Assembly (NCBI GenBank): GCA_947039505.1
Contig: CAMQYZ010000004.1
Coordinates: 92,031-156,030, forward strand
DNA from: an uncultured Mycoplasma sp.
GTDB lineage: Bacteria; Bacillota_I; Bacilli_A; Mycoplasmatales; Metamycoplasmataceae
Direction of reading: 5' to 3'
DNA: 64,000 nucleotides
The notes beneath the pieces are model-generated. The model saw nothing but the letters and a program-made list of their open reading frames with translations. It was not told the origin of the DNA and did no database searches. Both the position numbers and the translations under genes were made by a program. Within the stretch, counting starts at the first letter, position 1; every line of letters starts with the position of its first letter. Of the stretch, positions 58,172 through 64,000 are shown one piece after another.

Positions 58172-59785
58172 ATGTTAGAAGTAAGAAATTTATCTAAAAT
58201 ATTCATTGATAAAAAATTATTCCAAGATGTAAATTTAAAATTTACAGAGGGCAATACTTATGGAATTATAGGTGCTAATGGTGCTGGTAAGTCAACCTTC
58301 CTAAAAATAATATCTAAAGAAATGGAATCTTCTGGCGGAGAAGTATTCGTCGATAAGGGACAAAGAATATCATCTCTAGAACAAGATCATAATAAATATA
58401 ATGAAATGAATGTTACTGATTTAGTTGTTATGGGCAATAAAGACTTGTTTGATATTCAAGAAGCTAAGAATGCAATATATATAAATCCTGATGCTACTGA
58501 AGAAGACTACACAAGAGCAAGTGAACTAGAAGAAGAATTTGGTGCAAAAGGTGGATGAAGTGCTGAAAATGATGCTCAAATATTATTAGAGGCTCTTGGA
58601 ATACCTAGAGAAAAATTCGGAATGAAAATGAAAGATTTAAAATCAGGAGAAAAAGTTAAAAGTATTTTAGCTAAGGCTCTTTTTGGAAATCCTGATATTT
58701 TAATTATGGATGAACCTACTAACCATTTAGATATGAGAGCTATTAAATGACTAGAAAATTTTATTATTGAGTATGATAAAATTGTTATCATCGTTTCTCA
58801 TGATAGTGATTTTTTAGATAACATATGCACCAATATTGTTGATATTGATTTTGGTAAAGCAAAAATGTTTACTGGCAATTATTCTTTTTGAAAGCAATCT
58901 TCAGAATTGATAGCAGAAATGCAAAAAAATACCAATGTTAGAAAAGAAGAGCAAATTGCCAAATTAAAATCATTTATTGATAAATTCTCAGCAAACGCTT
59001 CTAAATCAAAACAAGCCACTTCTAGAAAAAAATCTTTAGAAAAAATAACACTTGACGAAATCATCCCTTCTACAAGAAAATATCCTTTTATTAGATTTGA
59101 AGTAGATAAAATTCCTGGCAAGCAAATATTGGAAATAGAAAACTTGGGTTACAAAGACATTACTGGTCAAGTTTTATTTGATAATTTATCTTTTACTATG
59201 AAGCCAAACGATAAATTAGTAATCATTGGTGAAGATGATATTGCCAAAACTAAATTTTTAGAAATCCTTGTTGGTAAAGAAAAAAATTTTACTGGACAAG
59301 TAAAATGAGGAGCAACTATAAAACATGATTACTTCCCTAGTGATAATAATTCATATTTTGAAAATGATAACTCTATGCTTGATTGACTTAGAGAGTGACC
59401 TCTTAAAAACACACAAGAAGCTAACAAAGATGTTAGTGATCAAAGAATGAGATCGTTCTTAGGTAAAATGTTGTTTAGTGGTGACAGTGTTTTTAAACAA
59501 GTCAAAAACACTTCCGGGGGTGAAAAAGCAAGATTAATGTTTTCTAAAATCATGCTTACTGAGTCAAATTTTTTAATTTTTGATCAGCCATTAAATCACT
59601 TGGATACAGAATCTATCGATGCTGTTGTAGAGTCTTTCGACAAATATGAATCTAATATGATTTTCACAACATATAATAAAGCATTAATAAAAGAAGCTAA
59701 CATTATATTAGAAATTAAAAATGATTCTTCATTTATATTCAGAGGAACATTGGAAGAATACGAAAAAAAAATGGATATTAATTAA
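58172..59785 (+). CDS. ABC-F family ATP-binding protein
   Basis: Two ABC domains: GIIGANGAGKSTFLKIISKEMESSGGEV ... ILIMDEPTNHLDMRAIKWLENFI ... LNHLDTES; SD AAGGAG upstream. Confidence 0.93.
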
Positions 59786-59800
59786 GTCCATTTTTTTTAT
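59768..59800. terminator. Hairpin between convergent ABC-F gene and lipoprotein gene
   Basis: aaaaATGGA..TCCATttttttt. Confidence 0.6.
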
Positions 59801-60243
59801 TTTGCTGGAATATAGAATTGTACAATTAAATTTTTATAATCAGAATAATATTCAGTATTAAGATCGTTATTATAAAAATAAGCAATTCTCACTCTTAATA
59901 TAACTGTAGTCCCTTCACTTTTTGCTGAAATTGGTTGGAGTTGAGTCACAAAATTTTTTCCAAGCATTTGGTTTCATGGATACTGAGAAAATATTGAAGC
60001 ATTGATGATATTGCTTGAAATATTATTTTTATCATCAACAATACTTGCGGCAGCTTCATTTGATTTTTGTTTTGCTAAAATTTCATCTGAATATGTTACA
60101 TTAGCCAAAGTATCTTGTAATGAATTTAATATATCGTTAATTTCACTTGGAGTTGAAGAACAAGAAGTAAAAACTACAATTGGCAAAGAAGCCAACAGTA
60201 CTGTCCCTAATTGTAATAATAATTTTTTAATAATAAAATGCAA
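59797..60243 (-). CDS. Lipoprotein
   Basis: IIKKLLLQLGTVLLASLPIVVFTSCSSTPSEINDIL: signal peptide with lipobox FTSC; TTG start. Confidence 0.75.
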
Positions 60244-60261
60244 CTTCTCTTTCTAAATATT

Positions 60262-60954
60262 TTAGCTTACTTTCGCCATAAGAACAGTATCAGAAACATT
60301 AGTAAAATAATAAGTAGGTGATGCAATCAAAGTTATTGTTGTATTCACATCAATCAATAGAACATTTTTACCATCAATTGTTTTCAAGTGTTCTTCAGTA
60401 ATTCCTGAAAATAAAGGAGATAGCGCTGCAGCCATTTCTAGTTCGTTTTCAGCTTTTTTATAATCTGTTATTGATTTATCAATTATTGCTTGTGTAACAT
60501 TAGCAACCAAAGCTATAGGAAGTACATTAGTAGGTGTAGGTGAAACAATTGTTGTCAACTTAACATCAACAGTGTCCGAAGATACATTAAAAACATATTT
60601 TGTATTGTCAATTATTTTACCTTGCAAAGTAATTGTTTTATCAGTTTCACCTTCAACTAACACTTCAAAATTATTAATGTTATTTTCATTTACACCAATA
60701 AAAATATTTTTCAAGATTATAATTAATTGATCATTTATAATTTTTTTCTCTTCAGGTGTTGTTGATGGTAACGCTTGTACTGCAACAATGTCAATTGCAT
60801 TTTTATTTATATCTGCTTGTGTTACTGTAGTCATATTAGATAGTAATTTAATATTTAACAATTCATCTGTGATTGCCGAAGAACAAGATGCCATTGCTGC
60901 TACCGGTAAAATAGCTAATGATACAGTTCCTAATCCTAATAATAATTTTTTCAT
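60262..60954 (-). CDS. Lipoprotein
   Basis: MKKLLLGLGTVSLAILPVAAMASCSSAITDELLNIKLLSNMTTVTQADINK...: lipobox MASC. Confidence 0.85.
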   Translation of the reverse strand: MKKLLLGLGTVSLAILPVAAMASCSSAITDELLNIKLLSNMTTVTQADINKNAIDIVAVQALPSTTPEEKKIINDQLIIILKNIFIGVNENNINNFEVLVEGETDKTITLQGKIIDNTKYVFNVSSDTVDVKLTTIVSPTPTNVLPIALVANVTQAIIDKSITDYKKAENELEMAAALSPLFSGITEEHLKTIDGKNVLLIDVNTTITLIASPTYYFTNVSDTVLMAKVS

Positions 60955-60966
60955 AATTTCCTCTTT
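60878..60966. repeat. 89-bp direct repeat copy A (RBS + lipoprotein signal peptide)
   Basis: Matches 62106-62194 with a single mismatch (60890 g / 62118 a). Confidence 0.95.
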
Positions 60967-61029
60967 TTAAATTCAATTTTAGTTTTATACTATTATACAA
61001 TATTTTTGCATTCATGCTATAAAAAATAA

Positions 61030-61054
61030 AAAGAATATCTAAAAGATATTCTTT
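61030..61054 (-). terminator. Hairpin after lipoprotein gene 61085-62182
   Basis: AAAGAATATCT-AAA-AGATATTCTTT. Confidence 0.7.
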
Positions 61055-61084
61055 AATTATGATTTTTTAAAATTATTATTTCAA

Positions 61085-62182
61085 TTATTTTGCTGGTGGT
61101 GTTGGCACTACATCAGCTTTTAATAAAGAAGGATTAATACTAATAACTTCAGATAAAGTTGAAGCATCTTTAAAGTTTACTGTTAATTTAATTAAAGAAC
61201 CAGTATCTTCTATTTTAATATTTTCAACTGTTTCCAAAACTTGTTTATTTGTTTCTGTAGAAACCAAAATTTTTCCTAAATCAGTCGCAGTTGTCATACC
61301 TATAAGTGTTGCTTTATCAATTGTTTTTAATTCATCTGTATTAAATTCATATTGTAATTTCCCTGTTGAAGAAGGATATACAAAAGTATTTTCTAAAGCT
61401 GCTGATGGTGCAAAAAATACTGTATCCATACCAATTACTGCTTTTGGAACTGATGGTACCAATTTAGAATATATGTCACTCAATTTCAATTCATAACCAA
61501 TAAGTCCACCAATATTATTTAATTTTTTTGAATTATTCAAATAATTAATTTTATCAAAAATACCCAAATCATCAAAGTCATTATCATCATCATTTTCACC
61601 CAAGAAATATTCTTTTAATTCACTAATATCTAAACCATTTGAATTTGTTGTAGCTTGTTTAATCATTTCAGTAATTTCATTTATTTGAGCTTGAGAACTA
61701 ATAATTGGTCTAATTACTCAATCAATTTCTTTTGTTTGAATAGTTTCAGTATCTTTAGTATCTGTTTCTAGTTCAAATTTAACACTTAATTTAGCAGTTC
61801 TAACACCATTAGTATCAGGAGCTCCAATACTTAAAACAGTAATTCCTTTATCTAGAATTTCAATTTCAATTTCATTATTTTCAAATTCGTAAATATCATA
61901 AAAATCAGTTAGTATTAAATCAAAATCTTTTTGCAACATTGAAGTTGTAAGACTATTAATTTTTGAATTTAATATTTCTTGAGCATTCATATTAAATGCA
62001 GGATCAATAACATTTTCTTCCAAAACAACTTTTTGTCCTTTAACAACCACTTCTTTTTTAACAGTAACATCAAACTCTTGTTCTGTTAATTTTGGAGAAG
62101 AGCTTGAAGAACAAGATACCATTGCTGCTACCGGTAAAATAGCTAATGATACAGTTCCTAATCCTAATAATAATTTTTTCAT
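61085..62182 (-). CDS. Lipoprotein
   Basis: MKKLLLGLGTVSLAILPVAAMVSCSSSSSPKLTEQEF...; ORFs 61718-62209 and 61085-61666 share frame through TGA=Trp; lipobox MVSC. Confidence 0.85.
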
Positions 62183-62194
62183 AATTTCCTCTTT
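62106..62194. repeat. 89-bp direct repeat copy B (RBS + lipoprotein signal peptide)
   Basis: Matches 60878-60966 with a single mismatch. Confidence 0.95.
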
Positions 62195-62334
62195 AAAATA
62201 GTATTTCAATCCAGTAATTTTTATAGATTGATTAAATCATTATAACATAAAAAAAATTATTGAAATATTTTTTTTGTGTCTAATTTGATTAAAATATATT
62301 AAATAATTAATCTGTAATTAAGCACTTAATATTA

Positions 62335-62890
62335 CTATGCAAAACCAGTAATTGTAAATGCAACATTTTGAATTATTGTTATTTCAATTCTTATTTCTTT
62401 AACTATATACAAATAATTAAGATGAATTGTTTCATCAAGCAGTATTACTGAATTTTCTTCACCCACAAGAGATTTAAGGGCATTTCATTTTCTAATTTAT
62501 CTCCTAGAATTATTGCTATTCCTTGAGATATGGTTACAAGAAAATATTGAACTCTTAAAAATATATATTCAATTTTTAATGTTGGTAATGCTTCTAGTGT
62601 TATTTAACAGAACGCCATTGCCACTATCAAGTAAAATAATTAATGATAAAATTTCTAATTCTAATAATAATTTAACACCTTACTTACTAAAATTTAATAA
62701 TTTTAATCATTGTTTTTTAAATTTATGAAAATAACTTATTCATTTGTAAAGTAAATTATTCTTAATTTGCATGAATATTCACTAGATGGATAAGAGTTTC
62801 TAAAATTAAAAGTTTATTAATTACATTCTTTAGTATAGAAATTGTCAATTAATGTTTTTGAAATATTTGATTTTGCTGCTTTTGTATCTA
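62335..62890 (-). pseudogene. Decayed remnants of about two surface-protein repeat units downstream of the intact ORF
   Basis: aaaaccagtaattgtaaatgc (62340) cf. aaaccagtaattgtaaatgt (63222); ttcttcacccacaagagattt (62458) cf. atcttcacccacaagagattt (63980); tttttgaaatatttgattttgctgcttttgtatctatt (62852) cf. gcttttgaaatatttaattttgctgtttctgaatctatt (63460). Confidence 0.6.
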
Positions 62891-62896
62891 TTTTAC

Positions 62897-64000
62897 TTAT
62901 GGTGTTGTTGGTGCTGTAAATCCAGTGATAGTCATTTTACCAGTTGCTGTTTTTGATCCTGCTGTTTCAGTAACTGTAATTATTACTTCAACTGTTGTAT
63001 TATTTGTTCCAATTACTGCTGATGTTACTTCAAAAGTAAATCCCATTGAAACTGTAGGAACATTTTCACCTACAAGAGTTTTTAAAGCTGCAAGTTTTGT
63101 TGCTGCATCTCCTGTAATTGTCGCTGCTGCTTCTGCTGCAGTTTTTGTAGCTTCTGCAGTTAATGCCGCTAATGAAATATCATATTTTGCTGCTTCTGCT
63201 GCCAATGTTGGCGCTGCTTTTAAACCAGTAATTGTAAATGTAGCTATTTTAGTAATTTCTGTTCCATCTTGTTTAACTGTAATTGTCACTGTCATGTTAG
63301 TTGTTCCCAATGCTGCTGCTGCCATTACTTCAAAACTAAATCCTGTTGACGGTGTTGGAGCATCTACAAGAACCTTGAATGCTGCAAGTTTTGTTGGCGC
63401 GTCTGTTGCATTATTAATTGAATCTATTGCCGCTGTTATAATTGTTGTTGGAGTTTTGGTTGCTTTTGAAATATTTAATTTTGCTGTTTCTGAATCTATT
63501 GTTGGTAATGGTACATCAGTAACTTGCAAGACAGTATTTTGAAATCAAAATCATCCTGTACGTACTGTGATATTGATATCAAGTGTTGTTGGTGTAGTTG
63601 CATTGATTGAAGCAGACTTTACTCCAAATCAAAAATCTTCCGCTAATACCGGAATATTTTCTGCACCTACAAGATTTTGTAAAATACTAAGTTTTGCTGT
63701 TTCATTATTTGAACTATTATTAAATTCTTCAACTAATGTATTTGTATTATTAGTTAAATCAATTGCTTTTAATGCAATATTCATTTTTTTTGTTTCACTT
63801 TCTAATGTTGGTATTCCAGCCAAATTAGTAATTGACAAAATGGCATCTTTTTTATTAGAACCTACTATACCATTTGTTTCAGTAACTGTGATTTCAACAT
63901 CAATTGTTGTGTTTGTTACTCGATTAAGAGCCACTAATTTTACTTCAAAAGTAAATCCATCTGCTAATGTTGGTAAGTTATCTTCACCCACAAGAGATTT
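62897..64000 (-). CDS. Repeat-containing surface protein, 5' end beyond the window
   Basis: ORFs 63629-63991 and 62897-63529 lie in one frame (TGA=Trp); about 100-aa repeats with GFTFEV / TTVEVxITVTE / xxTITGFxAPTL / KLAALKxLVGE. Confidence 0.8.
62897..64000. repeat. Tandem degenerate repeats, about 294-321 bp period, encoding surface-protein modules
   Basis: Landmark (t/c)acaag at 63071, 63365, 63668, 63989 (spacing 294, 303, 321). Confidence 0.8.

Follow-up and report, generated by a model that had tools for sequence, protein, structure and literature searches.

In an uncultured Mycoplasma, two neighbouring lipoprotein genes share a nearly identical 5′ module, although their mature proteins have nothing recognisable in common. 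We consider it probable (about 0.78) that this module is homogenised within each genome by repeated gene conversion between tandem neighbours, while the mature parts diverge freely. Recombination at a common 5′ module had been proposed in a first-pass annotation of this DNA, and that proposal is supported here by silent-site identity and by the tree of the module. If this is right, the locus is a clean comparative case in which a lipoprotein export tag evolves as a unit apart from the exported protein: neighbours copy it from one another, and searches of these bacteria gave no site-specific recombinase. It also carries a warning that signal-peptide similarity tells little about the relatedness of mycoplasma lipoproteins, and the module is a candidate homology anchor, through which surface proteins could be reshuffled.

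The lipoprotein array and its 5′ module

The genome analysed (G000) comprises 804 kb in 8 contigs, and the window, that is, the whole stretch of 64,000 nucleotides under analysis, corresponds to G000:C4:92031-156030, its right end being the contig end. TGA encodes Trp in this genome, and genes were read with code 4. For comparison we used G004, G009 and G011, in which the array also lies beside the ABC-F gene, with further C orthologues from G002, G007 and G010; those of the genomes that public records name are consensus assemblies of metagenomes. A scan with the ABC-F neighbour gave uncultured Mycoplasma CAMRBN010000002.1 as the closest named relative with the locus (ABC-F protein 96%), and a scan of genome contigs with the C protein gave no named relative.

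Lipoprotein genes A, B and C, a remnant and gene D stand in tandem in a single orientation (Table 1). Gene D contains repeats of ~100 aa each at ~300-nt spacing, and its missing 5′ end was found in no other G000 contig by module similarity. None of A, B, C and D matched a Pfam or NCBIfam family above cut-off, and structures predicted from two-sequence alignments (mean pLDDT 53 for C and 51 for B) were too poor for a fold search. Beside the ABC-F gene the order is A, B, C, D, F in G004, A, B and part of C in G009, and A, C, F, D, E in G011, so that F and D change places between genomes; pseudogene remnants with decayed modules occur in G000 and G011. Another candidate instance of the locus (L054) was rejected, as the ABC-F gene there is adjoined by other genes.

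Table 1. Coordinates of the array and its associated elements within the window.
Feature	Position	Strand	Remarks
ABC-F gene	58172-59785	+	Lipoprotein array begins to its right
Gene A, lipoprotein	59797-60243	-	Non-ATG start; directly downstream of B; orthologues in G004, G009, G011
Diverged module-type signal region of gene A	60155-60243	-	66% to module, E 1.1e-6
Gene B, lipoprotein, 230 aa	60262-60954	-	Orthologues in G004, G009
Gene B 5′ module, signal peptide MKKLLLGLGTVSLAILPVAAMASCSS	60878-60966	-	89-nt repeat, 99%; exact 75-nt core 60892-60966
TATAAT -10-like element, gene B	60992-60997	-	Outside module, 43 nt upstream of ATG
Terminator-like hairpin downstream of gene C, A+T-rich and T-tailed	61030-61054	-	z -1.97, weak
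Gene C, lipoprotein, 365 aa	61085-62182	-	Orthologues in G002, G004, G007, G010, G011
Gene C 5′ module, signal peptide MKKLLLGLGTVSLAILPVAAMVSCSS	62106-62194	-	89-nt repeat, 99%; exact 75-nt core 62120-62194
TATAAT -10-like element, gene C	62239-62244	-	Outside module, 62 nt upstream of ATG
Decayed D-like lipoprotein pseudogene	62338-62700	-	Degraded module, about 62606-62673
Gene D, repeat-containing surface protein	62897-64000	-	5′ end beyond contig end

The B and C modules are direct repeats with a spacing of 1228 and one mismatch, spanning the ribosome-binding site, the start codon and the signal peptide, all as the first-pass annotation had described, down to the peptide it quoted. Its further statement that the two proteins diverge straight after the module is borne out by mature B and mature C, which have no BLAST similarity. 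The exact core begins 12 nt before the ATG and ends at codon 21 (chance expectation 0), and codon bias alone would lead ~12.9 of 24 same-residue codons to differ between B and C, where 1 was observed. At the sole mismatch B encodes Ala and C encodes Val, and the same residue separates B from C orthologues across species. A diverged copy noticed earlier near 60.17-60.24 kb proved to be the signal region of gene A, and the pseudogene remnant carries at its 5′ end a fourth, decayed copy that the annotation lacked (about 62.61-62.67 kb, 79%).

The two genes predate this near-identity. Orthologues match the G000 proteins at 62-68% of amino acids for A, about 50% for B and 58-63% for C. Because mature B and mature C are unlike each other and each has orthologues in other species, sequence comparison indicates that they are old, distinct genes and that the pair predates the species split. 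The species order given by thrS places G004 as sister of G000 with full support, followed by G009 and G011. Among these four genomes, the residues of B and C are 96-100% identical in the signals, versus 52-62% in the mature parts.

In the region 59797-62182, the mature A, B and C of G000 have 52-63% identity to those of G004, where thrS and the ABC-F protein reach 93-97%; the silent codons of the three match at 0.59-0.69, versus 0.75-0.76 for thrS and the ABC-F gene. Such values between sister genomes suggest either strong diversification or exchange between lineages. In the mature C tree, grouping of G000 with G004 was weakly rejected (AU p 0.044).

Every tandem gene except A, including D and E of the relatives, has a TATAAT element 32-106 nt upstream of its start and outside the module; gene A lacks a clear element of this kind. 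A generic promoter scan gave no more matches than shuffles, and promoter calls here consist of TATAAT and position only. The elements at B, C and the relatives' D and E would nevertheless argue against a single-promoter locus with the other genes silent, and the terminator-like hairpin after C suggests that B is a separate transcription unit. A run of eight T lies just upstream of the gene C -10-like element (62245-62260). In other lipoprotein promoters of mycoplasmas, tracts of this kind gain or lose length by slippage.

Silent sites, trees and tract edges

The first-pass annotation had named signal-peptide constraint alone as the competing account of the repeat, to be checked at synonymous sites, and on that check this account fails. 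Silent codons in the signal were identical at 84/85 positions between paralogues within a genome vs 102/127 between orthologues (pooled; Fisher p 1.2e-5, the pairs being not fully independent), and the probability of full identity in any one event at the orthologue rate is about 0.01. Over codons 2-24, B and C of G000 differ at 1/69 nt with 0 silent changes, C, D and E of G011 have 0 differences, and B and C of G004 differ at 4 nt, with one codon silent. Between orthologous signals the same stretch shows 3 to 8 nt differences, and 2 to 5 codons have changed silently. General silent constraint is no explanation of the identity, because orthologous signals change at silent sites as fast as thrS and the ABC-F gene do (G000 vs G004 codons match at 0.76, and at 0.75-0.76 in the latter two genes). 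Codons 2-9 are invariant, silent sites included, in 9/9 compared copies, so that only ~15 codons are informative; some nucleotide constraint is likely at the very start of the gene.

The tree of the module rejects a clade of C orthologues (AU p 0.0014 and 0.006) and does not reject one of B orthologues (AU p 0.10 and 0.20). The conflict between segment tree and flanking-gene orthology by which concerted evolution is recognised was thus found for C and was not significant for B. As a control, an unlinked lipoprotein gene (Cp, G000:C3:79729) has a signal of its own, which is 76% like the module and near-identical, upstream region included, to that of its G004 counterpart. The homogenised copies of G000 and G011 stand in tandem, as conversion among genes close to each other would lead one to expect.

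Private variants are distributed by genome. The codon CCG makes up 6.6% of proline codons and, in modules, is found only in B and C of G000, and the combination GCA+TTG is confined to the B and C genes of G004. The three G011 genes C, D and E have the same sequence over a stretch that starts 19 nt upstream and runs to the end of codon 24, and the upstream region of C is the AAAGGATATTAAATTATT of D genes (ribosome-binding region), unlike the kind found in its orthologues. Upstream, identity reaches to -12 in G000, to -19 and -28 in G011 and to about 0 in G004; the downstream edge is the point where homology stops. Varying upstream edges would be as expected of homologous tracts and not of a fixed site.

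The upstream region also bears on the direction of copying. B orthologues in G004 and G009 have 32 identical nt upstream of the start in common, and G000 B instead has a C-like upstream and ribosome-binding region, replacing the one that B orthologues keep. Given that G004 is sister to G000, that G009 lies outside, and that both have the common B upstream region, the change is placed in the G000 lineage, and we infer that its direction was likely from C to B.

Probable copying between neighbours and alternative explanations

The unit copied would consist of the ribosome-binding site, the start codon and the signal peptide up to the lipobox, and the last event in G000 would most likely have copied ~75 nt from C to B. 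The Ala/Val mismatch may be due to a tract that stopped short of this residue, or to selection that restored Ala in B. Conversion probably proceeds by RecA-dependent homologous recombination between direct repeats ~1 kb apart, and RecA is present in G000 (E 3e-128). Selection may tolerate conversion because any working signal peptide will do. The same copying would have taken place independently in related species, keeping the export tag uniform while the exposed proteins diverge.

Purifying selection alone, by which the copies stayed the same because signal peptide and translation start are constrained, accords with B and C signals that are far more conserved in residues than the mature parts and with the silent invariance of codons 2-9. 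We think it unlikely, since the silent codons of orthologous G000-G004 signals diverge like those of housekeeping genes and those of paralogues within a genome do not, and neither the private CCG common to B and C nor the D-type ribosome-binding region in G011 C is easily explained by it. Recent tandem duplication or module capture, with the mature parts diverged or replaced afterwards, would suit an array with gene birth and death, as seen in the remnants and the changing order of F and D. The separate orthologues of B and C in other species mean that the genes are older than the identity, which makes this account very unlikely, though the contradiction is limited to B and C, and for D and E of G011, whose mature parts are about 30% alike, such an origin is conceivable.

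Least credible is a site-specific phase-variation locus of the Vpma/Vsp/Vsa type, in which a single promoter or module is joined to one mature gene or another; this we regard as having almost no chance of being correct. The anatomy is alike, with a conserved 5′ untranslated region and signal peptide and divergent mature parts (PMC2268961). Against it, PF00589 gave 0 tyrosine recombinase matches in G000 (97% complete), G004, G009 and G011, with positive controls in 14/14, and PF00239 gave no serine recombinase in G000. Moreover, all copies of the module in the assemblies face the same way, a promoter-like element precedes each tandem gene except A, and there is no fixed crossover core.

In vpma of Mycoplasma agalactiae and vsp of Mycoplasma bovis, clustered lipoprotein genes have a conserved 5′ untranslated region and signal peptide with different mature parts, and a tyrosine recombinase whose site precedes the start codon inverts DNA, switching one promoter between genes (PMC2268961). 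The G000 locus resembles these in its common 5′ untranslated and signal-peptide region and divergent mature parts, and differs in having no recombinase found, direct repeats, mostly own promoter-like elements and a varying upstream edge. The N-terminal paralogues of MBA in Ureaplasma parvum share a 5′ region for the signal peptide and anchor and then differ, and chimeric genes are made by DNA inversion at inverted repeats (PMC3047005); the G000 locus likewise has several genes with a common 5′ region, but no such inverted repeats were seen there. Segmental recombination between repeated copies changes the surface genes mgpB and mgpC of M. genitalium (reviewed in PMC4534519). There the variable parts are exchanged with archived copies, whereas here an invariant export segment would be copied. 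We found no report of concerted evolution confined to a signal module in the open-access literature.

The first-pass annotation had gone further, suggesting that recombination at the module could swap mature lipoproteins or delete one. Swaps of mature parts and deletions between modules would be possible in principle, but neither was seen: the genes share a single orientation, B, C and the relatives' D and E have promoter-like elements beyond the module, the searches gave no recombinase gene, and the relatives' assemblies contain no deletion or fusion junction. That the module is kept as a homology anchor, with whole mature lipoproteins exchanged between lineages, by recombination there with neighbouring genes or with DNA from outside and without a dedicated recombinase, is hinted at by the low identity of mature A, B and C together with their lower silent match between G000 and G004 and the weak rejection in the mature C tree, and we consider it a doubtful though conceivable reading. 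G011 has C next to A, with no B gene in the gap; loss of B by deletion from module to module is not supported, since no remnant of B was seen at that place and G011 A lacks a module.

Related arrays, relics and the signal of gene A

In G008, four tandem lipoprotein genes (L081) are alike in the signal and the start of the mature part. This array is an ordinary tandem duplication, in contrast to the G000 locus. A lipoprotein gene relic elsewhere in G000 (L004:1440-1640; G000:C3:138835) begins with 33 nt exact to the module, its frame stops after ~30 codons, and an intact counterpart is found in G004. G011 has, between its D and E genes, a decayed copy of the module (L069:9415-9917); its upstream region is nearly that of D, and it is another dead gene of that array.

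Gene A of G000 appears to have had its signal peptide replaced in place by a module-type signal, presumably donated by some module-type gene. Its signal has a BLOSUM score of 70 to the module and of 30-38 to the A orthologues; the latter score 59-65 with one another and, in three genomes, have one common signal-peptide type different from that of G000 A. Only the G000 gene, among A genes, was found by DNA similarity to the module, and its mature part is a normal orthologue. At 60229-60243, G000 A has ATT where the G004 and G009 orthologues have ATG; its start is likely a TTG 12 nt upstream of the ATT, which is itself preceded by purine-rich sequence.
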